Positions 4,001 through 27,477 of a stretch of DNA of 64,000 nucleotides are shown piece after piece. Source of the DNA: Clostridia bacterium. Its GTDB lineage: Bacteria > Bacillota > Clostridia > UBA1381 > UBA9506. The translations under genes and the position numbers were made by a program. Numbering within the stretch: the stretch's first letter is position 1; every line of letters starts with the position of its first letter. Where the stretch lies: positions 62,001 through 126,000 of the forward strand of contig JAFQAZ010000002.1 of assembly GCA_017416855.1 (NCBI GenBank), in the 5' to 3' direction. The notes beneath the pieces were generated by a model that was not told the origin of the DNA, did no database searches, and saw only the letters and a list, made by a program, of their open reading frames with translations.

Positions 4001-4174
4001 ATTATCATTAATGCCGTCATTAGCAAACTCTGCAGAATGAGCATCATCTACAAACGAAGATGCAGTTGCCGGTTGATACAATGCAACATTGACAGTTCCT
4101 TCATCTGCATAAATGGTCATGGTACTTAAGCAAAATAAAGCCATGACAAATAGCAAAAACAATCTTCTTTTCAA
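1025..4174 (-). CDS. secreted protein with discoidin (F5/8 type C) and SLH domains
   Basis: I place the start at a TTG (4174). It has GGAGGG 7 nt upstream, and the in-frame TTG at 4192 lies upstream of that ribosome site. The roughly 1049-aa product has a signal peptide (LKRRLFLLFVMALFCL...), then a discoidin/F5/8C-like domain at about residues 25-165 (WWQVDLG and FRFVRIEKTD are typical core motifs). Three SLH-type repeats follow at about 195-350, for example GYPDGDFLPYDSITRAEF and FVDVKPEHWAYNAIETVAGM. The last 700 residues are beta-rich and I do not recognise them. SLH repeats bind pyruvylated wall polysaccharide, so the protein should be wall-bound and could present a glycan-binding domain outward. 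It sits tightly between two other secreted-protein genes in the transporter operon. The substrate is unknown. Confidence 0.88.
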   Translation of the reverse strand: MKRRLFLLFVMALFCLSTMTIYADEGTVNVALYQPATASSFVDDAHSAEFANDGINDNETYTWWMNKSDDVSVWWQVDLGIAHKICSVEVASRVGGSAIERKNFRILASNNADFSQSVELAVVTEDYGELFSVEVNKKDKFRFVRIEKTDAAALSIGEFRVLVKKAEIAQGAEAVSLTGQIPSTDEAGRYILPADVIGTSYEKAVQLLSALNLMRGYPDGDFLPYDSITRAEFSTVIARMLGGELSAGTRSFVDVKPEHWAYNAIETVAGMGIVNGVDEGLFAPDSKVTKPQVIKMLVSALGYSDVAERTGGYPEGYQQMAGKLGLYDNITLQQGEDINRGEIALLVYNALECDIMQVMGTGKYITGTAYKGQTVLTEYLHLNKAKGIVTGVRGTSLTNVNHRETDDYLEINGTQYVSAIPGLDRYLGYEVEYYYDNNVADIPNVVALVVTNRNTSLTIDASELLDIKNNTLLYDMEKEQKARLSENMDVIYNGVALRIYDYDDLLPSSGQVTLIDNNGDLTYDVYIVLDIKNYIVNFVNLNKNTVYTKDAAGSLPLDMEKSNVSIIHKATGAPVTLENLQEWNVLSVMESVNTEGQKCYQVIVSDEFVRGQLEEKGNDYLIIAGRKFGIADNFVVSSVELGAKGFYYLDAVGKVAAFNGDSTPGACYGFLRGVNYPNEGLDRKLQFRVFTHKGIFETLTASDKFTLNGALVTDKSAVKGQLEATGMAGTAGQAIYYTINASGLVTSMETTNGALVLNYDPVNGIGTPPIASDMAGYYLSVAETFDSAFAYDEDTVMVELPPGNELASEKGYALLTSADLKKSSYYKVMAYDVSDEKIAKMLVFTGGASSDAGDSEKLFLVNDLKQAVNDDEGVSYKVSGLYGGEEVEYFINEDASFSASDFTQGTVMSLAFKGSEISDYEIKFFPTTKPNDAPEYSISAAASECQAARNVRGILGGGFMGYGTVTAKKNGIMIVSFSGTTGEEGTSYPHLVVRLSSLENIYRYDSENEKIMLGKDTDVLDEATVGTLEASHVIVTADSGLFRECIILD

Positions 4175-4198
4175 AATAGTCCCTCCATTCAATAAACT

Positions 4199-7100
4199 TT
4201 ATTTTGCACCTAACACTACTGCTGAGCCGGGCGCCACGGTACCAAAATAACCTGGATTGGTAATCGCACCTTCGTAATTATCCACGAAGTCAATCACGGT
4301 TTCCCCATTAATGGTAACAATGATTCTGACACCGCCTGCTTCATTGCGTGTAGTCAGCTGAATATCATTTTCTTCATCAAACTTAAATACATCTGTTTTT
4401 AAGCTTCCACCAAATATGGTTTTGGCACTTTCAACAGGACCCCAGAACTGGGTACGAACACCCTGATTAAAGCGATGTAATTCAATGGCTCCCGGATTAA
4501 AGCAGAGAATATAGGCCTGATTTGCCATATCATCAAAGCTCTTATCATAACTTTCAGAACGGAAGACAAGGCTCGGCCAGTCATAGGTATCACGAGAGGC
4601 GACTTTCATTGTAAAGGACAGGTTTACGTTGCCGTAAATATCGCCTGTATAACAGCTATTGTTATACAACCCAAAACTATTCCAACCTTCTGTATCATCC
4701 AATGCCGACTTCAAACTATGTGCATGTTCACTATCAATAGGCGTTGGCTTAACCGCACGTACAATATATGTTTTAGCTGAGGTTCCATCTAACGTTTTCA
4801 AGGTATATTTAACATCACGACTAAAGTTCTGTGGCAAGGAGGGATCCGGTGAGATTGTGACACCATCTTTGCGATATCCAATTACCGGAACTAAATCCTG
4901 AAGATCCGCAGAATATTGTACCGGCACTTCAACAATGCCGTTTTCGTGGTCAATTTTAACTCCTATTGATTGATTCAACAAAGAGAAAGAAGAGATTCTC
5001 AGATCAATTTTGGATTCTCTGAAAAATTGTAAATACTGTTCTAAATACAAATGCATTTCCTCATCATCTGTATCCTTTTTATAGGTCTCTAAAATATTTT
5101 TCAGCTTGTTGTAGCAATCCTTATTAATCATACCCAAGCCTGTTCCTACCGTTGTCTTCTTCAATTCGGATTCAGCTTCTTGAATCAGACGTTCCGGTGT
5201 ATAGCTGATACGGCTTGCTTTAAAAGCTTCTACTTCTTTGATTAATTCCAAACGTGTTGCCACTACTTTATCCCTATTAATGGGGTTCATTTTCAATGCA
5301 GCAGCTGCCGTTTCAATCGCATTTGAAAAAGCCTCTATAGCTTCCTTAGGGTACTGCCCCACTTCGCTTCCTGTTTCCGCCAAAGACAGCCACATACGGC
5401 AGTCGGCAATATAATAACGAAGTACATAAACCAAAAGGTTATTATCAATCATAAAGACAGGGTCATAACGGAGATTATTAAATTGGCTTTCTATTGTCCG
5501 AGGCCACCAGTTTTTTCCTGCCTTTTCTGTAATATGCTTATATTGGTCCTCCAATCCCGCGTTAACAATAATCTCCATAGCATCCACAGGTGGATTACCG
5601 GGGATAAAATAGGTTGGATCTTCAATATATTGATTAGGTGTTGTATCGATCATATCCTTGGTAGCCGTTGTCCAGTTATCTTCCCAACGGGTACCCTGAC
5701 CGTTTTCAGCACATAAAGCAAAAATATTCACATCTTCAATCACATTATTGATATAACTATAAAATGAAGTTGAATTATCACCATAAAGAGCACCATAAGG
5801 ATTCGGCATGTTCTTAATATAGTTACCAATCTGTGTAGAGTTTGGCTGAGAACCCAATGTATAGATACCACCACCATCAACAGAAACCTGCATTACCTTT
5901 TCGAGATGGTTATAGTTGATACTGTTGTCTCTGCCGTCTACAGCATCAGCATAATGACCCCAACCCCATCCGCAACATAAACCGGAATAAGGGACGTCAT
6001 ACACTGTATTATGACTCATATCCAAGCCTCTTGTATAATAAGCCTGAATACCTGGTGCACCAGTATTAATCAAACCAATTCTGGTAATATAGTTATTACG
6101 AATCAGATTATCTGCGCACTGGTCGGTTCCTGGTGCATATTCTTCATCTTCATTAATAACACGCACTTCAGCCAGATATAAATATGATACATCCGTTTTT
6201 CTGATACGCACATAACGGAATTCTTCTTCGCTCTCTACATAATAGGTTGCTGTAGAATGATGAGCATAAGGTTCTGCACCCTGTTTTCCCAAAATTGTAT
6301 AGGTACTAAAATTAGGGTCATTAGAGCCTAAAATTTCAAAATTACTGCGGGCAACCTTATTATCAACATCAATTCTATCATCAATTTCAATACGATGAAT
6401 ACGCCAGGATTCTCCTAAATCTACCTGCCACCAATGTGGCCCTAAGCCCTCTGCAGAATAACCGGTTTTTACATTACCGTCTATTGCTGCTGTTGATATG
6501 TACGTCTGTTTGTGCGTCCAATCTTTTGCAGCGGATGCAAACTTTCCATGTGCCAGGTCTCTTCCTTCATAAACCTTATCCTGATAAGGCTGATCCATGG
6601 TACCGACAGTCATTGCACTATCCGCAATATCACAGAATACATTGCCCACAAACTGACAGTTATACACACCTTCTACCAAGCCGATGCCAACAGCTCCCAT
6701 ATTCCGAATAATATTGTTGGTAAAGAAAATTTTTTCAGCACGGTCTAATACGATGTTAGCCGGAACTTGATAATAGCCGGGATTTTTCTTTACATCATCC
6801 TCATGGGGTGTATACCACTGTGCCTGGTCACCCACAATGCTGTGAGAAGCACCACGATTCCAAATAGTATGTGCAAAAGTTAATGAATCGAAGGCGATAT
6901 TTTTAACTTTATTGCCGGAATGTTCCCCGCTGATAGAAAGGAGTGTCTGTATCACAGGCACTTCAACTTCTGCCGTTGACATGTCCTCATCTTCACGGGG
7001 CATATAATACAACATAGCGGTTTTTCTGTTATAATAAAATTCGCCAGGTGTATCCAATTCTTCAAAGGCATTAATCAGAATGAAACGATTGCCTGGATTT

Positions 7101-7819
7101 ACATAATGTGTGGGACCGGGGGTTGTAGCCTCTTCAAAGAAAGGCTGTTCCATATAAAAACGGCAGTTATCCCCAGTCGCTTCTATCTTTTCAACATTCA
7201 GCAAAAAAGCTTTCCATGCACGGCTGAAAAACAGTTGAATATCCTCGGCATTTGTATAAGAAGCATATTTTGCGCCGCCTTTGGTCACAATTCCGTCACT
7301 TTTGTAACCGGAATCTTTAACCGCAAAAAGCTCATCTAAAGGAACCATTTCTTCTGTCTGAGCACGTCGCCCTGCTCTGCCATTAACATCTAATGTGCGA
7401 ACATATTCAACACCTTCAACCGGTGCACTCCAAATATTGCCGTTTGTTTTTTTCCAGCCGGTAACCGGTTTGCCACCGGAAACAGTTACAGTTTCTCCCG
7501 GATATGACATATATCGCACATAGTAACCATTTGAGCCACTATCCTCCGGCTCAAATGTCAGGGTTTCAGACTGTCTGTAAACACCACTGCGAAGATATAC
7601 ACAGATATCCCCTTTCATATCCTGATTGAATTTTCTTACTTCTTCCCGTGCTCTGTCGATTGTTAAAAACGGATCGCTTTCAGTACCGGTTCCATTATCA
7701 TTACCAGTTGTCGATACATAAATCGTTTTCCATGGCGTGTTTGCACCATTGTATGCAAAACACGGAAGTGACGAAATTAACAATATTGTTCCAAGTAAAA
7801 GTGATAATATTTTTTTCAT
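4199..7819 (-). CDS. secreted right-handed parallel beta-helix protein with internal discoidin domain
   Basis: A 1206-aa protein with a signal peptide (MKKILSLLLGTILLISSLPCFA) and a start supported by GGGAGG. The opening IYVSTTGNDNGTGTESDPFLTIDRAREEV is typical of pectate-lyase-fold (parallel beta-helix) carbohydrate-active enzymes. Helix coils continue with turns such as NNIIRNMGAVGIGL and NYITRIGLINTGAPGIQAYY. At about residues 420-558 the helix is interrupted by a discoidin/F5/8C domain (HWWQVDLGESWRIHRIEIDD, FRYVRIRKTDVSYLYLAEVRV), after which helix coils resume. The C-terminus (about 1000-1206) looks like a cadherin-like beta domain followed by a concanavalin-like domain. Related beta-helix families include glycosidases and lyases (GH120/GH141-like), but I cannot assign an activity. 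It is the only obvious catalytic candidate for glycan cleavage in its operon. Confidence 0.85.
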   Translation of the reverse strand: MKKILSLLLGTILLISSLPCFAYNGANTPWKTIYVSTTGNDNGTGTESDPFLTIDRAREEVRKFNQDMKGDICVYLRSGVYRQSETLTFEPEDSGSNGYYVRYMSYPGETVTVSGGKPVTGWKKTNGNIWSAPVEGVEYVRTLDVNGRAGRRAQTEEMVPLDELFAVKDSGYKSDGIVTKGGAKYASYTNAEDIQLFFSRAWKAFLLNVEKIEATGDNCRFYMEQPFFEEATTPGPTHYVNPGNRFILINAFEELDTPGEFYYNRKTAMLYYMPREDEDMSTAEVEVPVIQTLLSISGEHSGNKVKNIAFDSLTFAHTIWNRGASHSIVGDQAQWYTPHEDDVKKNPGYYQVPANIVLDRAEKIFFTNNIIRNMGAVGIGLVEGVYNCQFVGNVFCDIADSAMTVGTMDQPYQDKVYEGRDLAHGKFASAAKDWTHKQTYISTAAIDGNVKTGYSAEGLGPHWWQVDLGESWRIHRIEIDDRIDVDNKVARSNFEILGSNDPNFSTYTILGKQGAEPYAHHSTATYYVESEEEFRYVRIRKTDVSYLYLAEVRVINEDEEYAPGTDQCADNLIRNNYITRIGLINTGAPGIQAYYTRGLDMSHNTVYDVPYSGLCCGWGWGHYADAVDGRDNSINYNHLEKVMQVSVDGGGIYTLGSQPNSTQIGNYIKNMPNPYGALYGDNSTSFYSYINNVIEDVNIFALCAENGQGTRWEDNWTTATKDMIDTTPNQYIEDPTYFIPGNPPVDAMEIIVNAGLEDQYKHITEKAGKNWWPRTIESQFNNLRYDPVFMIDNNLLVYVLRYYIADCRMWLSLAETGSEVGQYPKEAIEAFSNAIETAAAALKMNPINRDKVVATRLELIKEVEAFKASRISYTPERLIQEAESELKKTTVGTGLGMINKDCYNKLKNILETYKKDTDDEEMHLYLEQYLQFFRESKIDLRISSFSLLNQSIGVKIDHENGIVEVPVQYSADLQDLVPVIGYRKDGVTISPDPSLPQNFSRDVKYTLKTLDGTSAKTYIVRAVKPTPIDSEHAHSLKSALDDTEGWNSFGLYNNSCYTGDIYGNVNLSFTMKVASRDTYDWPSLVFRSESYDKSFDDMANQAYILCFNPGAIELHRFNQGVRTQFWGPVESAKTIFGGSLKTDVFKFDEENDIQLTTRNEAGGVRIIVTINGETVIDFVDNYEGAITNPGYFGTVAPGSAVVLGAK

Positions 7820-7860
7820 AAAAGCCTCCCTCTGTAGAGTGACCGCTTACATCCCTTCCA

Positions 7861-9438
7861 TTAATTTGAAAGAGTTTGTTTGAGCGTCCACGGCTTCATT
7901 AAATCATAGTCTTTCCAAATAAACACTGCCATTGTGCAACCGGTTGTATCAGCCGGCAATGTAAACCCAGCTTTTAGCGGTGTTGGGTCACTACCGGGCA
8001 AAAGTGTTGATCTTGCTTCATCTGCACGAATAAGTGTATTATTAGCATCATACAAAACTGTTAAAAGAATAACCGTTTCTGTTTTTGCGGGCTGATTGTT
8101 AGTAAATGTAACACTTGCAGCTGCAGAAGCATTGCCGCTTAAGCTATGTATTTCAGTGCTTGTTTCAAGTTTTCCGTTTAAGAATTTAAAATCCTGCATT
8201 TCAACAGCCGCAGGTGCAAAATGTGTTGCTGTCGCTGCATCTACTGCTATGCCATAGCTATTTGTCACTGTTACAGGAATTTCTGCTGTAATGGTAGAAC
8301 CATAATACATAGCATCCAAGGTAAACTGAGCTGTATAATTATCCAGAACAGTTGGAGTAATCGTTTTTGCTTCACCATCTACTTTAACAACGATATTGCC
8401 AAATGTAGATGTATCCATTTTATCAGAAAAACGAATCGTTAGTGTTTGTCCGGAATATTCAGAATATGCAAACGCAGGCTTTACAACATAAGCTTTAAAC
8501 TCAGCGATTGCTAAGGCCTTTCTGGCTGCTTTTGAAAGCACAACATACCGATAGCTTCCTTCTTCAATCATAAAAGTTTCTGATGGATTGCTGATACCGT
8601 TTGAAGAAAGTAACAGAGTTGATGTAGGTGTTCCTTCTGTGCTGGGTTTGCCGGCTTCTTCTGTAGCACCATAAATGTCAAACGCCGTGTAATCAGGGTC
8701 TACAAACGGATCTGCCTGATACATTTCCAACAAAGAAAGAGGACAATCTTTGCCTAAATCCATTACCAGATTAACAGGACTTGTGTGAGAAACGTCTGTA
8801 AGACGCCATGCAGACCATAAATAGCCGTCTACAACATTTGTCGGCGGCAGCACATCTAATGAGTTACTTGTGACTGTTGCCTCTACATCTGCTTCTCTTG
8901 AAACCTCTATTGCCTGAACATTGGCAAATACTTCTAATTCACTAAAATTATAGCTACCTGCAGCGATCTTTCTAACGCGAACAAATCGGCAAACTGTCCC
9001 TGACTCTGCCGAAGCTGTAAAGGCATCACTATCTGTAAGAGTTTCACTACTTCTGTCTCCTTGGCTTGCTAAAGTGGTGAAATTCATACCATCATTGCTG
9101 ATTTCCAATGCAACATTTGAAAGATCCGCCCCCACCGTTGCACTACTTGTAACCGGCCATAATTTAATTTCTGTTATTGTTGCATATCTTTTCAGGTCAA
9201 TGGTAAAGGTTTCGTCCGCCGCAGCTGTTCCGGCCACCGCACCATTATAAAGTCCATCTGCCAATTTAGCAGCGTCGGTATGACCGACGCTGCTAACAAC
9301 AGCTTTATTTCTTGCCAAATTAATATTTTTAGTCACAGCAGGTACTTCCGTTGCTGCAAAGACTACCTGAAAAGCACATAAGGAAAACAACAACACTGCC
9401 ACAATTGAAATCGTTGTAAGTCTTTTTATTATCTTCAT
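7861..9438 (-). CDS. secreted protein with two discoidin-like domains
   Basis: A 525-aa protein with a signal peptide (MKIIKRLTTISIVAVLLFSLCAFQVVFA). Two F5/8C-like domains follow, about residues 35-175 (CRFVRVRKIAAGSYNFSELEVFA) and 176-325 (VMDLGKDCPLSLLEMYQAD, YRYVVLSKAARKALAIAEFKAYV). An Ig-like/SwmB-type domain lies at about 326-410. The C-terminal domain ends in VFIWKDYDLMKPW and resembles the end of the phosphoesterase at 13382-17311 (FFLWEHETLKPLFE). It has no lipobox, SLH repeat or catalytic motif, so it is probably a secreted glycan-binding protein. It lies between the solute-binding protein and the beta-helix gene, with gaps of 27 and 41 bp. Confidence 0.83.
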   Translation of the reverse strand: MKIIKRLTTISIVAVLLFSLCAFQVVFAATEVPAVTKNINLARNKAVVSSVGHTDAAKLADGLYNGAVAGTAAADETFTIDLKRYATITEIKLWPVTSSATVGADLSNVALEISNDGMNFTTLASQGDRSSETLTDSDAFTASAESGTVCRFVRVRKIAAGSYNFSELEVFANVQAIEVSREADVEATVTSNSLDVLPPTNVVDGYLWSAWRLTDVSHTSPVNLVMDLGKDCPLSLLEMYQADPFVDPDYTAFDIYGATEEAGKPSTEGTPTSTLLLSSNGISNPSETFMIEEGSYRYVVLSKAARKALAIAEFKAYVVKPAFAYSEYSGQTLTIRFSDKMDTSTFGNIVVKVDGEAKTITPTVLDNYTAQFTLDAMYYGSTITAEIPVTVTNSYGIAVDAATATHFAPAAVEMQDFKFLNGKLETSTEIHSLSGNASAAASVTFTNNQPAKTETVILLTVLYDANNTLIRADEARSTLLPGSDPTPLKAGFTLPADTTGCTMAVFIWKDYDLMKPWTLKQTLSN

Positions 9439-9465: not shown

Positions 9466-11268
9466 TTATTGCTGCAAGCTTCTGGCGATTTCTGTCATTT
9501 CTTTCGCCATTTTTTCTAAATCTGTTGATTTCTTAAGATTTTCAACCGCACTATTCCATTTTTCTTCGAACTCTTCGTCAGATTCTGCTGCTAAAACCAG
9601 CTTAAAGGGTTCCTCCCACTGAGAGCGTGAGGACCAGAATTCAGAAACTGTCTCCAGTTCAGCATATTCAGCAGCCCAAGCATCAAACGGGGGAGCTTCT
9701 ACCGCTTTCACACGCAAGGGACTATCGGCTGAAAGTCGACCGCCAGCACTTGGTACCAACGCAAAGGTGCGAACATCATTATAACCTTTCGGCTCAAATT
9801 TGCTGGTTACCATGAAGGACATAGAGAACAGTCCTGCATTGCCATACAATCCGTAACAATCTGCTTCATCTAAGGTATTTGCTTCACCGCGAATATATTT
9901 TTTGTTAAACTCGTCATTGATAAATTCACGGGTTCCATCTTCATTATCCTTATACAGTCCGGCTTCCTTGGGACCCCAATACTTAACTTCTTCCCATTCA
10001 TCTGTAAACTGAACATTCATCCAGTTTAAAATCTGCGGTAAATCAGCTTCTTTAACTGTCTTTAAAATGCCAACTGCCGAGCCCCAGGAGGTCGGTGTTT
10101 TCACAGGACCATAACCTTCCATAGCGGGCACATTGGTGTAAAGAGGTCTGTAACGATAAGGCTTACCTGCTTTAGCAAGCATATCGTTAATAAATGGCGG
10201 ATGGTCAACTGAAGATAATACAGCTATTGCATATTCACCATTTAATAATTTTTCTTTAAACTGTGCAGTAGGTATAACCAAGCTTTCAGGGTCAAATACC
10301 TTTTCTCTGATCAGTCTATTCTGAGTCAAAGCTACTTCTTTAATTGTATCGCCTAACAAGGGTAACACAATTTCTCTTTTTTCTGTATCCCATGTAGTAA
10401 TGTAATTTCGGCCGACATAACCAGCCATATGCGCACCAAGCTGTGCATAAGGCACCCAACAGTCCACACTGGAATAACCAAAAGAATATACAGGACGTTC
10501 TCCAACCTTTAAATCAAGCGCCTTAATATCTCTGAAAAGTTTTATTAATTCTTCTGTGCTTTCAATGGGAACATCATATATTTCATCGCCTATTGGTTCA
10601 TTCTTTTCATTCAAAAGTGCAACCAGTTCGTCCCAGGTTTTAGCATCGGGATACAACATTTTTAAAATGTCGTCACGAATCCAAAGGTCTGTACCAACAC
10701 TAACTGCTTCGCTCATTGCAGCATCTTCTCGTTGATAAGCAGAAAGATGATCTGCATATTCTTCGTCAGCACTTAAAGGGAAATTATATGGAATACCATA
10801 AATTTTGCCGTTTACTTTAATGCGTTCCCACATTACGTCAGGAACTTTTTCCCAAATATCAGGTGCATACTTCTGTAGCATTTCCGGTGTTAATTCCCAA
10901 ATTTTATCAGCCTCAGCAATTTTACCAAAGTGAACAGGACCCTGACCGCCGCCACAGGCAACCAATTCAGGGAAATTATCACCAGCAATCAAACGTGCCA
11001 GCACACTTTCCCACTGACCGCCACCATTACCGTATGCGTTTTTAATACGCACATTCGTCTTGTCAATCAACCAATTCTCTACTAAATTTTCTTTTGCTGT
11101 AACAGGTGCAACAAAGTCGCTGCCCTGAGTACTCCATACGGTGAGTTCCAATTTTTTAGAAAAATCTCCCTCGCCTGTCGTTGTAGCTTTTTCTGCACAA
11201 CCGGAAAGCACAACAACCATCATACAAGCTAACATAACAACCGCTGTCAGTTTTTTCAGCATTTTCAT
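9466..11268 (-). CDS. ABC transporter solute-binding lipoprotein (family 1, LplA-like)
   Basis: A 600-aa lipoprotein with the signal MKMLKKLTAVVMLACMMVVVLSGC; the lipobox is LSGC. The fold is that of extracellular solute-binding protein family 1 (LELTVWSTQGSDF near the N-terminus, NKKYIRGEANTLDEADCYGLYG later). At about 600 aa it belongs to the large LplA type that works with LplB/LplC permeases, most members of which import oligosaccharides. The ribosome site is GGAGGAG. The operon encodes no ATPase, so a shared MsmK-like ATPase elsewhere is presumably used (known for this class, inferred here). The ligand cannot be named from sequence. Confidence 0.9.
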   Translation of the reverse strand: MKMLKKLTAVVMLACMMVVVLSGCAEKATTTGEGDFSKKLELTVWSTQGSDFVAPVTAKENLVENWLIDKTNVRIKNAYGNGGGQWESVLARLIAGDNFPELVACGGGQGPVHFGKIAEADKIWELTPEMLQKYAPDIWEKVPDVMWERIKVNGKIYGIPYNFPLSADEEYADHLSAYQREDAAMSEAVSVGTDLWIRDDILKMLYPDAKTWDELVALLNEKNEPIGDEIYDVPIESTEELIKLFRDIKALDLKVGERPVYSFGYSSVDCWVPYAQLGAHMAGYVGRNYITTWDTEKREIVLPLLGDTIKEVALTQNRLIREKVFDPESLVIPTAQFKEKLLNGEYAIAVLSSVDHPPFINDMLAKAGKPYRYRPLYTNVPAMEGYGPVKTPTSWGSAVGILKTVKEADLPQILNWMNVQFTDEWEEVKYWGPKEAGLYKDNEDGTREFINDEFNKKYIRGEANTLDEADCYGLYGNAGLFSMSFMVTSKFEPKGYNDVRTFALVPSAGGRLSADSPLRVKAVEAPPFDAWAAEYAELETVSEFWSSRSQWEEPFKLVLAAESDEEFEEKWNSAVENLKKSTDLEKMAKEMTEIARSLQQ

Positions 11269-11301: not shown

Positions 11302-12192
11302 TTAATCTTTAACTGCACCAATGGTAACACCTTGAACAAAATATCTCTGCAAGAAGGGATAACTCAAAATAATAGGCAACGTCGAACAGATAATAGCTGC
11401 TGATTTAATAGCTTCAGAGGTTGGCTTTACATGAGTCATATCTGTTCCCGTCATCATAGCCTCCGTGGTCATTTTACTAATGGCTTCGCTTTGTTTAATC
11501 AACTGCATAACCACATATTGCAAAGTATATAAATTGCTGTCGTTAACATAATAAAGAGTTGGTGTCCAGCTATTCCACGCTGCCACAACAGACCATAAAG
11601 CAATCGTAGCCAAAATAGGCTTACAAAGTGGCAGGATAATCTTATACAGAATTTGAATCTCGTTAGCCCCTTCAATATAGGCAGCCTCTTCCAACGCCGT
11701 TGGCAATGAGCTTAAATATGTACGAATAATAATTGTGTTATAAAAGACAAACGCACCAGGCAAAACATATACCCACCAACTGTTTAAAAGATGAAGATAG
11801 CGATATAAAATAAATGTTGGTATAATACCTGCAGAAATATAACTGGGAATCATTAAAAACCAGATAAAGAAGCTTCTCAGCGGCATCTGCTTTTTTGTCA
11901 TGGCATACGCAGCCCCAACACATGTCACCAAAATTAAAACTGTGGAACAAATGGCACTGGCAGCTGTAACACCTGCAGCCTTCCAAATAGACTTACTGGT
12001 AAGAATCGCCTCAAAATTAACCCATGTAAGTTTTCTGGGATAGATTGTGATACCACCCATCATCGTATCCGTACCATCATTTAAGGCAATTGCCAGCTGA
12101 TTGATGTAAGGGTAAATCATAATAACACACAGAAAAACCATTAGCAAAACATTAAAAACATCAAAAACTTTTTCTCCAAGACTTTTCTTCAT
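11302..12192 (-). CDS. carbohydrate ABC transporter permease (LplC-like)
   Basis: A 296-aa inner-membrane permease of the MalG/LplC class with six predicted membrane segments and the EAA loop EEAAYIEGANEIQILYKIILPLCKP, which contacts the ATPase. I place the start at the ATG at 12192, which has AAGGAGG 9 nt upstream. An in-frame ATG at 12213 lies before that ribosome site and inside the end of lplB. The conserved C-terminus GVTIGAVKD is typical of the family. It pairs with the LplB-like permease encoded just upstream and with the 600-aa lipoprotein to form an importer for an unidentified oligosaccharide. Confidence 0.92.
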   Translation of the reverse strand: MKKSLGEKVFDVFNVLLMVFLCVIMIYPYINQLAIALNDGTDTMMGGITIYPRKLTWVNFEAILTSKSIWKAAGVTAASAICSTVLILVTCVGAAYAMTKKQMPLRSFFIWFLMIPSYISAGIIPTFILYRYLHLLNSWWVYVLPGAFVFYNTIIIRTYLSSLPTALEEAAYIEGANEIQILYKIILPLCKPILATIALWSVVAAWNSWTPTLYYVNDSNLYTLQYVVMQLIKQSEAISKMTTEAMMTGTDMTHVKPTSEAIKSAAIICSTLPIILSYPFLQRYFVQGVTIGAVKD

Positions 12193-12206
12193 ATTGCTCC
12201 ACCTCC

Positions 12207-13166
12207 TTACCATATCCCCATGCCGGTTCCCTTTTTAACCACCGCATTAGAAACAACCACCAATAAAAACGACACAACCCCCTGCATCATACCAAAGGCA
12301 GTTGCCATAGAATAATCACCATTTAAAATACCCTGACGATATGTTAACGTATTAATAACCTCTGTTGCTTCTTGTGTATACACATTCTGAAAACCATAAA
12401 CCTGCTCAAAGTTAGAATTAACAAGACTTGACATACCCATAATAAAGCAAATAACAATGGTGGGCATGATGCTGGGAATTGTTATATAAAACACCTGTTT
12501 TAAACGGTTGCATCCATCTACCTTTGCTGCTTCATACATTGTTGGGTCAATGCCTGCAATAGCCGCTAAATAAACAACGGAGTTCCAACCAATATTTTTC
12601 CATTGTCCTGACCAGAAAATGATGCTCAAGAAACTATCCGGGTCGCATAAAATATTTTTTCTTTCATAACCGGAGCCAAAAATTGCTGCCATAATATCAT
12701 TAAAGGTTCCATTAATAGAAAACATAGCGTAAAACATACCAATAACAGAAATCCAGGAAATAAAATGTGGCAAATAGCTAACCGTTTGTACAATCTTTTT
12801 CAGTTTCTGTTGCTTGAGTTCATTAAACAAAATTGCCAAAGCAATTGGAAACGGCGTGCCCAGGAAAATGGTAACACTACTGTACACCAATGTATTTTTA
12901 ATCGCACCTAAGAACTTAGGCATACTTAAAATTTCTTTAAAGTTTGCAAGACCAGTAAACGGACTCTTTCCAATCCCGCCTATGATATCATAATCCTGAA
13001 AGGCCATAATTAAACCGCCCATAGGTAAATACTGAAAAATCAGTGCGCATAAAACTGCCGGCAGAATTAAAACGTACATAAATTTGTATCGTGAAAATCG
13101 CCTGCCCAGATCCTTCCAATATGTTCCGTGTGTGGGCTGATCCAATTTCTTAGCTAAATTGTTCAA
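12207..13166 (-). CDS. carbohydrate ABC transporter permease (LplB-like)
   Basis: A 319-aa permease of the LplB/MalF class (VLILPAVLCALIFQYLPMGGLIMAFQDYD; EAA loop YEAAKVDGCNRLKQVFYITIPSIMP). The start is a TTG at 13166 with AGGAG 8 nt upstream; no ATG fits. It is the first gene of the surface-protein operon and follows promoter P1, which carries the shared 27-bp box. Its stop overlaps the ribosome site of the LplC gene, suggesting translational coupling. Confidence 0.92.
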   Translation of the reverse strand: MNNLAKKLDQPTHGTYWKDLGRRFSRYKFMYVLILPAVLCALIFQYLPMGGLIMAFQDYDIIGGIGKSPFTGLANFKEILSMPKFLGAIKNTLVYSSVTIFLGTPFPIALAILFNELKQQKLKKIVQTVSYLPHFISWISVIGMFYAMFSINGTFNDIMAAIFGSGYERKNILCDPDSFLSIIFWSGQWKNIGWNSVVYLAAIAGIDPTMYEAAKVDGCNRLKQVFYITIPSIMPTIVICFIMGMSSLVNSNFEQVYGFQNVYTQEATEVINTLTYRQGILNGDYSMATAFGMMQGVVSFLLVVVSNAVVKKGTGMGIW

Positions 13167-13181
13167 ACGAATCGCTCCTAA

Positions 13182-13279
13182 CCTTAAGTGTTTGCAGGGC
13201 AGAACAAGACAAAACCCTGCATAATCATCTTACCACAATATACCCTCAAAAAAAACTACACAATTTATAAAAAATATCG
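13182..13279 (-). promoter_or_regulatory. promoter P1 with shared 27-bp box, plus 5'-end hairpin
   Basis: Read on the minus strand, the box (CGATATTTTTTATAAATTG then TGTAGTTT) lies at 13279-13253. GTAG is followed by 23 nt and an extended -10, TGG-TAAGAT (TAAGAT at 13232-13227). The -35 position holds only T-rich sequence, which fits an activator-dependent promoter. The mRNA would start near 13220. GCAGGG/CCCTGC (13194-13199 and 13215-13220) could then form a hairpin at the very 5' end of the operon mRNA. Confidence 0.7.
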
Positions 13280-13340
13280 TTATTTAGTCAACTTTTTATT
13301 TATTTGTAACAAAAATACTTTTTTCTCTTTGACTTGTGAC

Positions 13341-13371
13341 AAAGGGCTGTGACGATATGTCACAGCCCTGT
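13341..13371 (-). terminator. hairpin terminator of the phosphoesterase gene
   Basis: A perfect 10-bp stem, GGGCTGTGAC/GTCACAGCCC with a 5-nt loop (13344-13368), starts 13 bp after the stop codon of the minus-strand gene. The run of U after it is short (TTTG), so it may be a weak terminator. Confidence 0.55.
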
Positions 13372-13381
13372 TGTATTAAGT

Positions 13382-16300
13382 TTACTCTGCCGCAGCCGTT
13401 ACCGGCGCTGTATAACTTTCAAAAAGCGGTTTAAGCGTTTCGTGTTCCCAGAGGAAGAAGGAAAGCTTTTCCCCGGCCTTCGGTGTAACATTTGCAACAG
13501 ATACCTGTGCTTTCACACCAGCTGTAACCTCCACAGGTTCACTGGGGATGCAGTTGATAAGCACTCCCTTATCAGTCTTAACCGCTACATAGAGCACAAC
13601 AGAAGCATCAGCTTCAGGAATGAAATTAGCAATAATATCGCAGGCTGTATTGCCCACAGGATTGGTTACTGCAGAATCATTCTGTTCAATGGTAAAGATG
13701 TTAGCTTTAATAGAAAGTGTCTTATCTGCCGCCATTTCAATTCCATTCTGATTTCTCACCTTGGAACTGATGGTCAGCTTGTCACCATTTACAATGGTTC
13801 CATTATAATCAAAGGTAACATCATAGCCACCATCCCAACCACCTGCTACAACAGGGTTGGAAAGGGTTATGCCATCAATGCTGAAATTGTTGGCAACCAA
13901 AGTTGTAATTTCCATTTTGTCAGTAAAGCTGATGGTTATGGTGTTATCACCGTTCGCCACCGCACTGTAAGCAACCGGATTTACAACAAAGGCTTTAAAT
14001 TCTGCCAAGCCACATGCCTTATTCTTTGCCTTAGAAAGCACCAAATAGCGATAAGTACCTGGTGTAAAATCAAAATATTGAGAAACCACACTGGAACTGA
14101 AACCAGTCGATGAAGTAAACAGTTTAGTTGCCGCAGTCGTAGGTTCACCGGTAGTTGCAGGTTTACCTGCCGCTGTCTTATAGCCATATGCATCAAAAGC
14201 CGTGTACTCATTATAATAATTTGACAAATTACTTTGTCTATATAATTGAGCCATTTCTACCGGGTACTCATCATTCAAATCTACAACCAGATTGTTAATG
14301 AAGGTATTGACACCATTTACTCGCCAATATGTGCTGGTATCACCATCAACCGCCTTAGAGGCACCAGTATTATAATATTCTCCAACCTCAGCCGTCTTAT
14401 TTCTTGCTACATCAGTAATTGTCACATCGGCAAGCACTTCGATTTCGCTGTAGATATGATAAGAGGCTGCTGTTTTTCTAAGTCTGATATATCGATAGGC
14501 ACCGCCATCACCATTAAAGGCAACTGCTGTGGCACCGTCGACTGTTGTATCATTAGCTTTTACTTCGCCAAGGGGAACACAATTTGCAAAGGTTTCATCA
14601 TTAGAAGCTTCAATTACAAAGCCCCAATAGTTGGCTGCCGGCTTATCGGCGACAGGATGAACAATAACCTCAGAAACTGCATATCGTCTGCCCAAATCAA
14701 TCATATACCAGTCATTGGCAGAAGATGTAGATGGGTCAGCCTGAGCACCGGATGGCAAGTTAATCTTATCCTGATTATAAGCATCAGGAGGACACACAAA
14801 TCCTGTAGTGGTACCGCCATCAACCAACTTAGATGCAGCATAGGTACCAGTTGTCGGACAACCTGTATTGCTTGCAATGATGGTTTTGTTAAGCGCTACG
14901 TTTACATCTTCTCTTGTCTTACTGTAGCTTTTATTAATGGTCAGTGCTTTACCCGCAATCGGCACGCTCAATTCATCAACAAAAATTGCACCGTCTGCCG
15001 ATCCTACACTACCGGCTATTTTCAAAGTTATCCCGCTTGCAGGAAGAGCATTGGCAAAGGTGAGTGTGGCATCATAGCCGCCATCCCATTCCTCAGCACC
15101 TGTCAGCGTTACGTTAGAGGGGTTAATAACAGTACCATCATCCTGGACTACAGTCATTGCACCGGAAGCAGTCAGGCTGGCTTCATCCATTTTATGTGCA
15201 AAGGATACGCTAATGGCGTTATCATTGACACGGACAGCATTCATAACCTTCGGGCCGATTAAGTCTTCAGCGGTTTTAACAGCAGCATAAACTTCTAATT
15301 CACCAATGGTAAAATAAGTATTTTTCGTTTTTGCCAATCTGACATAACGCCATGCATTACTGTCACCGGCAAAAACTTGCGGCGTTGTATTGTTTACATC
15401 CTCTGCAAAGCTACCAAGAGTCACTTTGCTTGAGAAATCTTCCACATTAGATACCTGAACTGCAAAGTCCATCATATAACCGTTACTTGCGGCTGAGCTG
15501 GGCCAAACTTTGATCTGTGACAAGTTATAGCGTCTGCCAAGGTCAATCATAAACCAGTCTTCGCCCTGGTTTGCCGCCCCGGCAATTGTTGCACCGGACG
15601 GAAGCGTTACCACGCTATCAGCAGCATAAGTACCCGGTGTTACCTTATCACTCTTCTTACCATTAACCAAGTTCCCTTTACTGTCACTTGAAGAGGCCGC
15701 AGTATAAACTGTTTTATTTAACGCAACATTGATACCGCCATTGGCCTCAATAGATGCTTTTTCAGAATCTGTTAATTCTGCCGCAGTTGTAAAGGTATAG
15801 CTAACAGGTTTTACACCTTTGGCATCTAACGCACTTACAGAAAGATCCGCGGTCAACGGTGTTAAGGCATAAACTAAAGCTTCGTAATTTGTACCAAGAT
15901 TCAAAGCGTTAGAGAATGATACAGTATAACTCGTAGCGTGAGAACTCTCCGGTTCATAAATATCACCAAACACCTTAAAGTTCTGCTCTATAACATCCTT
16001 ATCTTTGTTCCTCAGCGCCACCCGATAAGCATGCACATAAGCATCCTGAAGCCATTCGACATCATCGCCCGGCGTAACAGATACATCGGTTGTGTTATAC
16101 TTAAATGCAAAAGCCTGACGGCTATCTCTGATCACTGTAATTTCAGCTTCATTACTGAAGTTTGCGATAGAAACATCGGCATTATAACGAGCTTCTGTAT
16201 ATTTAAAGGTTTCATTTGCCGGTTCGGAATTATCCGATGTTCCGTCAATGGTAAATGTAAACGGTGTGCCAATGACCTGACCGGTTAAGAGATTTAAACG

Positions 16301-17311
16301 GTAAACAGATACATCTGTTGCATCAGCCTTTTCGGTCATATCCAGCATAATGCACTGTGAGCCGGTATTGGCTGCTCCCATAGAATTCTTAGCGCTGCCG
16401 CCGGAAACGCTGCCGCCACCAATTTGCGAGGTCGCAATTGCTGTAAACCCGTCCTGCCAGATGCTTCTTGGGTCTTCGATAATAGCGTGGCTATGTCCAC
16501 TGAAAACAACAACGCGGGGATGTGCTTTTAAGAAATTTTTAAATTCTTCTGTGTTATCCTTATCTGTAGAAGTCGAAGACGGACTTTCGATAACCGTTCC
16601 GAAAATTGCTTCGTGCTGCAGATAGAAAATAGGTTTGTTCGTTCCGTCTTTTTCAGCTTCTAAAATCTGCTCCATTACAAAATCTTCTGCCGTGGTTTTA
16701 TAATCGAGAAGATAATCAGCCGGCTCACCAACAATAAATGTGTAACCATTTATTTTCATCACATGGCTCGGTTGTCTGCCGGTTTCTGTAGCAAAGCGTT
16801 CTTTGGATTCAGTAACTAATGTACTTGCTGTTGAAACAGATGCATTCAGAGGAAATTCATGGTTACCCATAGAATAAATGATAGGCTTTTTACCACCTGT
16901 TGTATCAGCATCAAAAGTAACCTCGTCTGCATTCATTTCACCGGCAAGAGTAAAGGTTCCGTTTGTTTCAATAAAACCTTTTAAAGCGCTGTACAAATTG
17001 GAAGGTACTGCTCCCGATGGTGCATACACCATGTCACCGTTCATAGCAAGAGCATCTACACCTAACGTTTGCATTGTTTGCAATGCCAGCGTCATGTTCT
17101 TTGCTGTGAGCTTTGTTTCTGCAACTTCCGGATCAAGGTGAGAGTCTGAGATAACACCCAAACGGAAGGTTGCACCTGCAGTTTCTTTTGTTGGAATCTG
17201 AGAGGTAAAATCATCTGCCGTTACACCTGCAACGGGCAAGCTTGTCAGCATCATTCCCAAAACCATAATAAGAGAAAGAAGTCTGACTGTTCGTTTACTT
17301 TTCATTACCAT
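13382..17311 (-). CDS. secreted calcineurin-like metallophosphoesterase with three discoidin-like domains
   Basis: A 1309-aa secreted protein (signal MKSKRTVRLLSLIMVLGMMLTSLPVAGV). The phosphoesterase domain at about 45-350 keeps the full metal-binding set: DSH at 56-58, GD at 92-93, GNHE at 149-152, H233 and GHSH at 272-275. Discoidin/F5/8C-like domains lie at about 528-685, 825-975 and 980-1115, separated by Ig-like/SwmB-type domains (for example VSFAHKMDEASLTA). The last 90 residues share the C-terminal domain of the 525-aa protein at 7861-9438. The start is either the ATG at 17311 or that at 17305; GGGTG precedes both and spacing favours 17305. It has no SLH repeats, so it is released or held by its discoidin domains. 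It has its own promoter with the shared box. The phosphate-ester substrate is unknown. Confidence 0.9.
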   Translation of the reverse strand: MVMKSKRTVRLLSLIMVLGMMLTSLPVAGVTADDFTSQIPTKETAGATFRLGVISDSHLDPEVAETKLTAKNMTLALQTMQTLGVDALAMNGDMVYAPSGAVPSNLYSALKGFIETNGTFTLAGEMNADEVTFDADTTGGKKPIIYSMGNHEFPLNASVSTASTLVTESKERFATETGRQPSHVMKINGYTFIVGEPADYLLDYKTTAEDFVMEQILEAEKDGTNKPIFYLQHEAIFGTVIESPSSTSTDKDNTEEFKNFLKAHPRVVVFSGHSHAIIEDPRSIWQDGFTAIATSQIGGGSVSGGSAKNSMGAANTGSQCIMLDMTEKADATDVSVYRLNLLTGQVIGTPFTFTIDGTSDNSEPANETFKYTEARYNADVSIANFSNEAEITVIRDSRQAFAFKYNTTDVSVTPGDDVEWLQDAYVHAYRVALRNKDKDVIEQNFKVFGDIYEPESSHATSYTVSFSNALNLGTNYEALVYALTPLTADLSVSALDAKGVKPVSYTFTTAAELTDSEKASIEANGGINVALNKTVYTAASSSDSKGNLVNGKKSDKVTPGTYAADSVVTLPSGATIAGAANQGEDWFMIDLGRRYNLSQIKVWPSSAASNGYMMDFAVQVSNVEDFSSKVTLGSFAEDVNNTTPQVFAGDSNAWRYVRLAKTKNTYFTIGELEVYAAVKTAEDLIGPKVMNAVRVNDNAISVSFAHKMDEASLTASGAMTVVQDDGTVINPSNVTLTGAEEWDGGYDATLTFANALPASGITLKIAGSVGSADGAIFVDELSVPIAGKALTINKSYSKTREDVNVALNKTIIASNTGCPTTGTYAASKLVDGGTTTGFVCPPDAYNQDKINLPSGAQADPSTSSANDWYMIDLGRRYAVSEVIVHPVADKPAANYWGFVIEASNDETFANCVPLGEVKANDTTVDGATAVAFNGDGGAYRYIRLRKTAASYHIYSEIEVLADVTITDVARNKTAEVGEYYNTGASKAVDGDTSTYWRVNGVNTFINNLVVDLNDEYPVEMAQLYRQSNLSNYYNEYTAFDAYGYKTAAGKPATTGEPTTAATKLFTSSTGFSSSVVSQYFDFTPGTYRYLVLSKAKNKACGLAEFKAFVVNPVAYSAVANGDNTITISFTDKMEITTLVANNFSIDGITLSNPVVAGGWDGGYDVTFDYNGTIVNGDKLTISSKVRNQNGIEMAADKTLSIKANIFTIEQNDSAVTNPVGNTACDIIANFIPEADASVVLYVAVKTDKGVLINCIPSEPVEVTAGVKAQVSVANVTPKAGEKLSFFLWEHETLKPLFESYTAPVTAAAE

Positions 17312-17709
17312 TTCACCCTTTCAAAATTAAAATTCTTAAACACAAACATTTTTTGTTTTATCATCGTAACATAAAAATTTATAAAAAAAAACTACACAAT
17401 TTATAAAAAATATCGCTTTTTGATTATTTTTTATAAAAATGTAGCCCTTTTACCATCAGTTTTAATCAATAACTTATAAATTTTTACTAATTTTACAACT
17501 AAAAATACGGGATTAATCTATCAAAATCTCATGGTATATAATGTAAAGAATCACTTATAATAATCATTTTCTAAATTATAAGAAAAGAAAGGCAGTATAC
17601 ATAATTAAATTAAAAAACGATATTTTTTATAAATTGTGTAGTTTCTTTATGATTTTAATTGTGCTATAATATGCCAATGTTACAATAATTTAATAAGGAG
17701 TATTTACAT
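17312..17709. promoter_or_regulatory. 398-bp divergent regulatory region with two copies of the shared box
   Basis: A very AT-rich gene-free stretch. P2, on the minus strand for the phosphoesterase gene, has the box at 17415-17389, 23 nt, then extended -10 TGT-TACGAT (TACGAT at 17368-17363). P3, on the plus strand for the EamA gene, has the identical box at 17618-17644; from GTAG there are 23 nt to TGC-TATAAT (TATAAT at 17665-17670). A degenerate box copy in opposite orientation (TATTTTTTATAAAAATGTAG, within 17421-17444) abuts the P2 box. Together they make a long imperfect inverted repeat centred near 17418. I see nothing gene-like in the rest. Confidence 0.75.
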
Positions 17710-18582
17710 ATGAAAACTAAAGCATTTATATATATTGTCATTGCAGGCATTCTATGGGGAACAGCAGGGCTTTTTGTTCATTATTTAACCCCATTCGGAT
17801 TTTCCTCTTTACAATTGACAGCAATACGTGGCAGCGTTGCCGCAATGGCTATGACAGTATATTTGTTTTTCTTCAATCGACAGGCCTTTAAAGTGACACT
17901 AAAAGATGTGCTGCTCTTTGCATGTAGCGGTTTTTTTCTGTTCGGTACCTCCAGCTGTTATTATATCGCCATGCAGGCATCCTCCGTTTCTACAGCTGTT
18001 ATACTGATGTATACCTCCCCTGTTGTTGTCATGGCTTTTTCAGTAGCCTTTTTCAATGAAAAAATGACCACCTTAAAAACTCTTTCCGTGGTTTGTATGT
18101 TAGCAGGCTGCTGTCTTGTTTCAGGCATCGTTGGCGGTATGGAATTTAATTTTATGGGAGTGATTATGGGTTTAGCCGCCAGTTTCTCTTATAGTGCCTA
18201 TAATGTTTTCACAAAAATACAAATGCGTCGATTCTGTAATCCAAAATCAGCTACGCTATTTTGCCTTATTTTCATGGCTCTTGTAGCACTAAGCTTCTCA
18301 AATCCGCCGGAGATTGTATCCATCATAGCACAAAAACCATCCGCTATTTTACCTTTAAGTATTGGTCTCGGCATCTGCACCTGTGTGTTGCCATACTTTT
18401 TATACACCATGGCTTTAAAAGACTTACCTGTAGGTATCGCTGCTTCTTTGGGGATCGTTGAACCAATGTCTGCCACACTCTTTAGTGTGCTGCTTCTTGG
18501 AGAGCCTTTATCGTTCCCTACACTTTGTGGCATTATACTAATCCTGATAGCAGTTTTAATTCTAAGTCGCAGCAAAGATTGA
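17710..18582 (+). CDS. EamA/DMT-superfamily transporter
   Basis: A 290-aa integral membrane protein with about ten hydrophobic segments in two EamA repeats. The first starts GILWGTAGLFVHYLTPFGFSSLQLTAIRGS. The second ends with the conserved EPMSATLFSVLLLGEPLSFPTLCGIILILIAV. The family exports or imports metabolites such as amino acids or sugars; the substrate cannot be told from sequence. The ATG has AAGGAG 9 nt upstream. The gene is divergent from the phosphoesterase gene and its promoter carries the same 27-bp box, so it is probably regulated with the surface-protein operon. A strong terminator follows. Confidence 0.9.
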   Translation: MKTKAFIYIVIAGILWGTAGLFVHYLTPFGFSSLQLTAIRGSVAAMAMTVYLFFFNRQAFKVTLKDVLLFACSGFFLFGTSSCYYIAMQASSVSTAVILMYTSPVVVMAFSVAFFNEKMTTLKTLSVVCMLAGCCLVSGIVGGMEFNFMGVIMGLAASFSYSAYNVFTKIQMRRFCNPKSATLFCLIFMALVALSFSNPPEIVSIIAQKPSAILPLSIGLGICTCVLPYFLYTMALKDLPVGIAASLGIVEPMSATLFSVLLLGEPLSFPTLCGIILILIAVLILSRSKD

Positions 18583-22166: not shown

Positions 22167-23408
22167 ATGAAACGAAGCCTTACAAACAGAAACAGAATTC
22201 GCTTATTTAGCGCTCTTTTTGCTTTGGTTACGGCTTCTATGATATTAGCCTGTCAAATTCAGTACCCAGCGCATATCACCATTTTTGAAGGTGAAAATCT
22301 CACACTAACCTCACCCACTGCCTACTCGATGAGTGCACCGGCCGCCATGGGCGGTATGCTGACAGAAGATGGCACTTTAGAAACAGATGTTTTCCAAAAA
22401 TCAGCAAATAACGAATGTCATATGACTGTCAAGTTATTTGGTCTGGTCCCCGTGCGCACTGTAACCGTTCACATTGAGCCAAAAACAGAACTGATAGCTT
22501 GCGGTAATACCGTAGGGATTAAAATTTTCAGCAAAGGGTTGGTTTGTGTCGGTACACAGGAAATTGTGGCCACAGACGGTAGCCGGCAAAACCTTGGTCG
22601 CACAGCTGATATACGACCGGGAGATATCCTTCTTTCGGCCAACGATGTGACTTTAACTGATACAGAAGAGCTAAGTCATTTAATTGCAAACAGCAACGGT
22701 TCTACAATTCATTTTACCATTTCCCGCAGTGGTCAGCAGATTGAAAAAAAGCTGACACCATTGCAAACAAAAGATGGATATAAACTAGGAATCTGGCTTC
22801 GTGACAGCACCGCCGGCATTGGCACACTCACCTTTTACAATCCTGATACAAAGGCATTCGGTGCCTTGGGGCACCCCATTGCCGACAGAGACACCGGCAC
22901 CACAATTCCCGTACTGGAAGGCTCGCTCCTCCCTGCCGGTGTGATTGGCATTACCAAGGGTGCCAAAGGGGAGCCAGGAGAATTAAAGGGCATATTCAAA
23001 ACCGGTCAGAAACCATTAGGTGTGATTAGTAAAAACACTGACCAAGGCGTTTTCGGCACTTTACACCACGAAATGAATGTAACTCATTTTTATCCCGTGG
23101 CCTCCTCTGCTCAGATTAAAGAAGGGCCTGCCACCATTCTTTCCAACATAAATGGTGACATGGTAGAAGAATTTGATATTGAAATCCAGAAAGCCTCCCC
23201 TTTTTATACCGGTGAGCAAAAAGATATGATTCTCCATGTAACCGATCCAAAGCTTCTTGAAAAAACCGGTGGTATAGTGCAGGGGATGTCGGGTTCACCT
23301 GTGCTGCAAAATGGTAAAATTGTGGGAGCTGTAACACACGTTTTTGTGAATGATCCAACCCGTGGATATGGAATATTTATTGAGAATATGTTAAAAGAAG
23401 TAGGATAA
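22167..23408 (+). CDS. spoIVB: SpoIVB serine peptidase (S55 family)
   Basis: A 413-aa protein from the ATG at 22167 (GGAG 10 nt upstream). It has an N-terminal membrane anchor (LFSALFALVTASMILACQI), a PDZ domain at about 100-195 (ADIRPGDILLSANDVTL) and the S55 peptidase domain with His in GALGHPIAD (H236) and nucleophile Ser in GMSGSP (S375). SpoIVB is secreted by the forespore into the intermembrane space, where it triggers pro-sigma-K processing. The 3' end of this gene, from the Ser codon onward, is duplicated at 27352-27477. The gene is intact here, but its last 40 codons may have been supplied by the inserted cassette downstream. Confidence 0.96.
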   Translation: MKRSLTNRNRIRLFSALFALVTASMILACQIQYPAHITIFEGENLTLTSPTAYSMSAPAAMGGMLTEDGTLETDVFQKSANNECHMTVKLFGLVPVRTVTVHIEPKTELIACGNTVGIKIFSKGLVCVGTQEIVATDGSRQNLGRTADIRPGDILLSANDVTLTDTEELSHLIANSNGSTIHFTISRSGQQIEKKLTPLQTKDGYKLGIWLRDSTAGIGTLTFYNPDTKAFGALGHPIADRDTGTTIPVLEGSLLPAGVIGITKGAKGEPGELKGIFKTGQKPLGVISKNTDQGVFGTLHHEMNVTHFYPVASSAQIKEGPATILSNINGDMVEEFDIEIQKASPFYTGEQKDMILHVTDPKLLEKTGGIVQGMSGSPVLQNGKIVGAVTHVFVNDPTRGYGIFIENMLKEVG

Positions 23409-23420
23409 AATAAAATATCA

Positions 23421-23451
23421 AAGCTCGGCTATTTTATAGCCGAGCTTTTTT
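23421..23451. terminator. bidirectional terminator overlapping the araC-type stop codon
   Basis: A 12-bp stem AAGCTCGGCTAT/ATAGCCGAGCTT with a TTT loop, then TTTTTT on the plus strand. It ends spoIVB, and on the minus strand it encodes the last codons and the TAG of the AraC-type gene. Confidence 0.87.
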
Positions 23452-24238
23452 GAATAATTAATTTTTTTTTGAATTCTCTTGGTGTAACACCAACCTGTTT
23501 TCTAAATTGGCGTGTAAAATGCTCCACATTTTTATAGCCGCACATTTGCGCAATTTCATATATTTTATTATTGCCATATAGCAAAAGTTTTTTTGCTAAG
23601 CTTATTCGTGCACAAATTAAATCTTTTTGGAAGGTAGTCTTAAAAAATTGCTTATATAAGCTTTGAAAATAAAATCTGCTTAGAAATAATTTATTTGCTG
23701 CATATTCAATTGACCAATCGAAAGCCGGTTTTTTATAAATATCATCTCGCAAACGATAAAAGACTGCATATTGGCTATACCGACTGTTGTTTTCAACCGA
23801 TAAATCATTTATCTCTTCGCCAGCCTTATATAAAAAGGCAAGTCCAAGTGATGATAAAATGTCCTGTGCATTGTGTGACGGAAGGTATTTCTCTTGCTCT
23901 ATCAGTGATATTATGCTGGTTATATATGCTGAGTTAACATGAAATATTGGCTTGCCTAATGGGATGTTCGAAAAAACGATTTTTTCAATATCGTTGCTCA
24001 AATCAAAGAAGACATAATCGTGATTAAATTCTGTTTCATCACAGCCGTAATAACTTTGAAACTGGTTTTTATCATAAAAAACCCCTGTTCCGGCTTGCAC
24101 CAGAATATATTCGCCATCTACATAAAGCATAGTTTTTGAGCGAAAAAGAACATAGAGATAATGTCCTCTACCATTGGGGAAATGAACGCTAAAGTTATTA
24201 TATCCTACAGAATTTGAAGCAGCTGATCTTATTATCAT
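23429..24238 (-). CDS. AraC-family transcriptional regulator
   Basis: About 269 aa from the ATG at 24238, which has AGAGG 7 nt upstream; the longer frame from 24292 has no ribosome site and runs through the operator. The N-terminal half is a cupin-like sensing domain (LYVDGEYILVQAGTGVFYDKNQFQ). The C-terminal 100 residues hold the two HTH motifs of AraC regulators (YAANKLFLSRFYFQSLYKQFF and KIYEIAQMCGYKNVEHFTRQF, ending GVTPREFKKK). It is divergent from the glycyl radical enzyme gene, with a tandem-repeat operator between them, so it most likely activates that gene in response to its substrate (inference). It is part of the cassette lying between the spoIVB repeats. Confidence 0.93.
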   Translation of the reverse strand: MIIRSAASNSVGYNNFSVHFPNGRGHYLYVLFRSKTMLYVDGEYILVQAGTGVFYDKNQFQSYYGCDETEFNHDYVFFDLSNDIEKIVFSNIPLGKPIFHVNSAYITSIISLIEQEKYLPSHNAQDILSSLGLAFLYKAGEEINDLSVENNSRYSQYAVFYRLRDDIYKKPAFDWSIEYAANKLFLSRFYFQSLYKQFFKTTFQKDLICARISLAKKLLLYGNNKIYEIAQMCGYKNVEHFTRQFRKQVGVTPREFKKKLIIQKSSAIK

Positions 24239-24258
24239 AATGGCACCTCTGTAAATAG

Positions 24259-24320
24259 CATTATATATCAATTTATTAACATTATATATCATTGTTTTTA
24301 CAATTGCAATAGCTTACAAT
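24259..24320 (+). promoter_or_regulatory. tandem 12-bp operator and promoter of the glycyl radical gene
   Basis: CATTATATATCA occurs twice in direct orientation (24259-24270 and 24280-24291), a 21-bp period or two helical turns. The second copy touches the -35 TTGTTT (24292-24297), followed by 17 bp and TACAAT (24315-24320). This is the usual geometry for AraC-type class II activation. The repeats also overlap the likely promoter of the regulator gene on the other strand. Confidence 0.7.
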
Positions 24321-27351: not shown

Positions 27352-27477
27352 GTGTCGGGTTCACCCATCCTGCAAAATGGCCGAATTGTGGGAGCTGTGA
27401 CACACGTATTTGTGAATGATCCAACCCGTGGGTATGGGATATTTATTGAGAATATGTTAGCGGAAGCAGAGAAATAA
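27352..27477 (+). pseudogene. spoIVB 3'-end fragment (41 codons)
   Basis: In frame, this encodes [20 protein letters not shown] and on to ENMLAEAEK-stop, parallel to the end of spoIVB (23286-23408). By eye the DNA is close to 88-90% identical, and most differences are silent or conservative (V/I, K/R). Similarity begins abruptly at TGTCGGGTTCACC (27353), with no match before it. It has no ribosome site or start of its own and is not an active gene. It is the displaced or donor 3' end of spoIVB and marks the right junction of the 23.29-27.35 kb cassette. Confidence 0.9.

Follow-up and report, generated by a model that had tools for sequence, protein, structure and literature searches.

A 27-bp promoter box as candidate operator of a local YesN-type response regulator in a Clostridia importer region

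Response regulators of the YesN type are common in gut and rumen Firmicutes. Local AraC-type two-component systems that control sugar importers have been established, including XydS/R (PMC3572039), BxgRS (PMC8579813) and TCS07 (PMC7075642, PMC11034029). The pneumococcal TCS07, labelled YesMN in PMC11034029, has a host-glycan regulon (PMC7075642); no clear repeat motif was found for the pneumococcal YesN, and the candidate RR07 motif is CTWWWWWWAG-N39-60-TSS (PMC11034029). Purified XydR binds upstream of its polysaccharide target genes, with no consensus fixed for the site (PMC3572039). Defined YesN operators are scarce; in the locus described here a candidate operator, its promoter geometry, four targets and a likely regulator can be read from the sequence, and the operator can be transferred to a second family.

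Four copies of one box head four transcription units within 25 kb, and one of these units encodes an AraC-type two-component system. This box regulon very probably joins the established local AraC-type two-component glycan regulons (TCS07, XydRS, BxgRS), with an operator and a promoter geometry that appear particularly clear. The TCS07 regulon resembles the predicted one in content, holding an ABC importer (binding protein plus two permeases), glycosidases and a ROK protein, and in several species it clusters around its own system. The pneumococcal regulon differs in its genome-wide spread, in other genes and in the shorter candidate motif. XydS/R of Clostridium (Ruminiclostridium) cellulolyticum likewise has an AraC-type response regulator that activates neighbouring polysaccharide genes; however, no binding of XydR was found ahead of the genes that encode the system itself (PMC3572039), whereas the regulator genes described here lie within a boxed operon. 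Among the local two-component regulators of Caldicellulosiruptor bescii, BxgRS likewise controls a sugar ABC importer and has conserved sites built as tandem repeats, but it differs from the box regulon in its sites and genes, in its genus-level reconstruction and in its xylan substrates (PMC8579813).

The window, by which we mean the whole stretch of 64,000 nucleotides analysed, belongs to a source genome of 2.37 Mb (G000). We compared it with a congener (G008) and with a member of another family (G087, 4.1 Mb); the genome sets were nine congeners for the box, 95 genomes of the order for its core pattern and 391 genomes of the class for the permease. Promoters P1 to P3 lie inside the window, and P4 denotes the fourth box, to its left (Table 1).

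Table 1. Predicted promoter elements and genes of the box regulon (positions in the window unless a contig of G000 is given)
Feature	Position	Strand	Remarks
Box P1, candidate operator	13253-13279	-	Exact copy; 27/27 in G008; core at orthologous G087 promoter
P1 extended -10	13227-13235	-	TGGTAAGAT; no -35
Box P2, candidate operator	17389-17415	-	Exact copy; 27/27 in G008
P2 extended -10	17363-17371	-	TGTTACGAT
Box P3, candidate operator	17618-17644	+	Exact copy; 25/27 in G008
P3 extended -10	17662-17670	+	TGCTATAAT
Box P4	G000:C1:55082-55108	-	Exact; 6.9 kb left of the window; equal spacing; extended -10 TGCTATAAT
P1 gene 1, ABC permease (BPD_transp_1)	12207-13166	-	PF00528; 67% identical ortholog in G087 behind shared core
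P1 gene 2, ABC permease	11302-12213	-	Weak NCBIfam matches to sugar ABC permeases; 61% in G087
P1 gene 3, presumed extracellular solute-binding lipoprotein of the importer	9466-11268	-	Position beside two permeases; 57% in G087
P1 gene 4, F5/8-type C (discoidin) secreted protein	7861-9438	-	PF00754
P1 gene 5, GH141-like beta-helix protein with discoidin domain	4199-7819	-	PF21231, PF00754
P1 gene 6, S-layer-homology and discoidin surface protein	1025-4192	-	PF00395, PF00754
P2 target, secreted metallophosphoesterase with discoidin domains	13382-17311	-	PF00149, PF00754, PF22633
P3 target, EamA-family transporter	17710-18582	+	PF00892; divergent from P2
P4 operon			In order: ceramidase-like hydrolase, two Gfo/Idh, xylose-isomerase-like, NagA + ROK kinase, 700-aa protein, isomerase-like, Gfo/Idh
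YesN, receiver and AraC-type HTH domain	G000:C1:59870-61476		Just left of the window; PF00072 6.9e-20, PF12833 2.1e-19, PF00165 8.5e-13

The first-pass annotation had reported an identical 27-bp box, CGATATTTTTTATAAATTGTGTAGTTT, at three promoters of the window. All three copies are exact, with none expected from dinucleotide shuffles. The genome-wide search that it proposed (2.37 Mb, up to three mismatches) returned four copies, all at promoters within one 25-kb region and none elsewhere, with zero matches for the reversed-pattern control. In a profile scan of G000, the four sites score 55-60 bits and the next match 15.5. The reported distance of 23 nt after GTAG is correct when counted to the TAnnAT hexamer, while to the TGn it is 20 nt, and all four promoters read GTAG-N20-TGnTAnnAT. 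The P4 copy (GTAG-N20-TGC-TATAAT) is new relative to the first-pass annotation, and its obedience to the spacing rule provides an independent check of that claim. The three extended -10 elements described earlier were found as stated, and the -35 is indeed poor, the best candidate at 16-18 bp spacing matching TTGACA at three of six positions. Flanking DNA, which had been called unrelated, mostly is so between promoters (mean identity 0.30-0.34), but not in the A-rich 10 nt directly upstream of the box (0.68); these are alike and partly kept in G008, which suggests an element slightly longer than 27 bp. A degenerate inverted copy that had been thought to form an extended dyad at P2 (17421-17444) found no support in shuffles, promoter distance or the congener. 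It can be read as TATTTTTTATAAA-AATGTAG, but 25 of 300 shuffles reach a match equal to the best one of this intergenic region; no promoter follows at the fixed distance, and the congener lacks a TGTAG copy there. A search of positions 12900-17900 against Rfam gave no matches, which speaks against a known structured RNA.

The earlier grouping of the importer/surface-protein operon, the metallophosphoesterase and the EamA transporter into one putative regulon gains from the genome search and from conservation in G008, and P4 adds a further unit. To the left of the window, the P1 unit continues with YesN, YesM and then a second beta-helix protein. Intergenic gaps from the first permease to YesN in G008 are 12-38 bp, consistent with one operon, and we regard the continuity of the P1 operon accordingly as a prediction consistent with gene order. 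The linked ABC importer has both permeases and a binding protein that is assigned by position only; the latter protein has an N-terminal signal with a lipobox-like Cys, as read from its sequence, and no match in Pfam, NCBIfam or PDB. The P4 box sits in the gap past the P1 operon, ahead of the catabolic operon. If the regulon is real, surface proteins, metallophosphoesterase, EamA transporter and NagA/ROK pathway belong together physiologically, and this link may help to reveal which glycan is used.

Two genes of the P4 operon deserve separate mention. The 700-aa protein (L009 4420-6522) has no match in Pfam, NCBIfam or PDB; it is conserved and may represent a new family of enzymes in the pathway. 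NagA and the ROK kinase form one 691-aa open frame left of the window (L009 6533-8608, G000:C1:48533-50608), while in G008 they are two adjacent genes, separated by a stop, a ribosome-binding site and a start. The single frame stems either from a recent natural fusion of the two genes or from faulty assembly.

Among the nine congeners, only G008 carries the box, in four copies at the same four promoters. Its boxes agree with those of G000 at 105 of 108 positions (97%; 26/27, 27/27, 27/27 and 25/27 per promoter), the extended -10 elements at 33/36, the 17-nt spacers at 38/68 and the upstream flanks at 23-34 of 50. In all eight promoters of the two genomes, the box lies at about -59 to -33 relative to the predicted start. 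In G087, the importer/surface-protein/YesN/YesM cluster is syntenic (permeases 61-67%, binding protein 57%, YesN 41%, YesM 32% identical), and the DNA upstream of its first permease reads AAAAAAGTAAAATCACGATAT-AAAAAAGTAAAATTGTGTAGTTT-N17-TGTTACAAT, following the pattern CGATAT-N11-ATTGTGTAGTTT-N17-TGTTACAAT. The core occurs once in these 4.1 Mb, at this orthologous permease promoter. A profile built from G000 and G008 only ranks the G087 site first (E 0.0045, the sole match at or below 0.05 in 4.1 Mb); similar E-values also arise in other genomes, so that rank and place, not the E-value, carry the weight.

The pattern GTGTARTTT-N17-TGNTANNAT has 12 matches in the 95 genomes of the order, against one for the reversed control. 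Ten of the 12 are at these clusters; one of the others is intergenic without a fitting gene and one lies within a coding region. Permease homologs occur in 10 of the 391 genomes of the class (44-54% identical, besides the window's own) and mostly have no core ahead of the gene; so far as these genomes show, the code thus does not extend beyond the order. Across 84,980 species, a relaxed pattern matched only the congener SVJQ01000002.1 (Oscillospiraceae bacterium SIG439) and, apparently by chance, one Prochlorococcus. In another genome, G002, GTGTAATTT-N17-TGTTACAAT stands ahead of the permease, and the adjacent YesN is more distant. Directly upstream of that element (G002:C29, L035 ~7805-7840) there is a TGTGCAAAAT...TGTGCAGATA direct repeat at 21 bp, which suggests the two-half-site layout of another YesN.

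YesN adjoins the kinase YesM (His_kinase PF06580, 2.9e-19; HATPase_c slightly under the cut-off). Within the family, this YesN and its ortholog (80%) are confined to G000 and G008, the two genomes with the box. The second HTH with its recognition helix hardly differs among G000, G008 and G087 (YxSKTYFxSLFREYxGK), and the promoter-proximal TTGTGTAG is likewise kept in all three; the first HTH varies more across genomes, and so does the promoter-distal half of the site. A second importer/YesN/YesM cluster is present in G000 (G000:C17:45998-53461, L038/L039; binding protein 40%, YesN 28%). No box was found at this paralogous cluster, and the region of the second HTH differs in its YesN. The G087 site contains a perfect direct repeat, 14/14 at 21 bp (0 of 500 shuffles), while the corresponding repeat in the G000 box (8/14, 493 of 500 shuffles) is too weak to claim; half-site spacing differs by 2 bp between the two lineages.

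When AraC-type proteins act as class II activators, the promoter has this geometry: a site at about -59 to -33 and an extended -10 without a -35. The box has this arrangement, standing at a fixed distance from the -10 and adjoining or overlapping a weak -35. The proposal that it lies where AraC-type or response-regulator activators bind is strengthened by its conservation at congener and other-family promoters, and the local YesN belongs to both types. We consider it likely that the box is the operator of this YesN, which would co-activate the four neighbouring units. For the binding protein, for activation rather than repression, and for the signal and substrate, we infer the following scheme. 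YesM would sense a glycan-related signal, and phosphorylated YesN would bind the box, which lies directly upstream of the -35 position and overlaps it, and would compensate for the missing -35 by contacting RNA polymerase at the extended -10. P1 to P4, and no other promoters, would then fire together, providing four units for sugar-chain uptake and breakdown: the importer, surface binding proteins and YesNM from P1, the metallophosphoesterase from P2, the EamA transporter from P3, and from P4 the catabolic operon with its ceramidase-like hydrolase, Gfo/Idh and xylose-isomerase-like enzymes, NagA and ROK kinase. With the YesNM genes inside the P1 operon, this model would entail positive feedback.

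Several observations count against assigning the box to YesN. Linkage and co-inheritance of one locus could by themselves yield the co-occurrence of box and YesN, the four sites are more alike than is usual for AraC-type operators, only one site was found in G087, and the direct-repeat layout expected for an AraC-type dimer is not significant within the G000 box. We also entertain, with considerable doubt, the stronger idea that this YesN-type regulator obeys an unusually rigid promoter code: a near-invariant operator, followed by exactly 17 nt to the extended -10, would be kept across families while YesN falls to 41% (perhaps 32%) identity and half-site spacing shifts by 2 bp. If true, this could make recognition readable across the YesN family, which is very large and for the most part motif-less.

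That another regulator binds the box (a free AraC-type protein, a repressor or a global factor), with YesNM controlling something else or acting only indirectly, seems to us unlikely. Other AraC-type and YesN-type regulators are encoded in the genome, and the core overlaps the -35, where repressors bind too. However, all sites fall within the single 25-kb region where YesNM is encoded, an argument against a global factor. Across families the core accompanies the YesN-containing cluster, and the combination of poor -35 and extended -10 is what an activator would need. The other AraC gene of the window (23429-24292) was rejected as the regulator, having no ortholog in G008 or G002, both incomplete genomes, or in G087.

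Chance likeness of A+T-rich promoter DNA, or a structural effect (curved DNA or an UP-element) without a specific protein, is very improbable as the source of the box. Its left part is rich in T, and many genomes give profile matches to that part at background level. Nevertheless, the zero expectation by shuffling counts as a refutation of chance, and against a structural effect the most conserved part is not an A/T tract but the mixed-sequence, promoter-proximal TTGTGTAG; in G087 the middle tract has changed, while CGATAT and ATTGTGTAGTTT are kept. Least probable of all, and hardly credible, is an origin of the copies as relics of a small element, mobile or repeated: P2 and P3 do form a MITE-like 41-nt inverted repeat (93% complementary) around 182 nt, but P1 and P4 are unpaired single copies, every copy is at a promoter with one spacing and none elsewhere in the genome, the four are orthologous in G008 with diverged flanks and a P2-P3 distance of 128 nt against 202 nt in G000, and core matches on viral contigs show no further similarity to the box. 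Those thirty viral matches look like chance, their upstream agreement averaging 4.2/16.

Elsewhere in the window, positions 23287-23403 and 27353-27469 form a 117-nt direct repeat (88% identical), in which the end of a SpoIVB-like gene recurs between the radical-SAM activase and amidase genes. It is probably a fragment remaining from a duplication.
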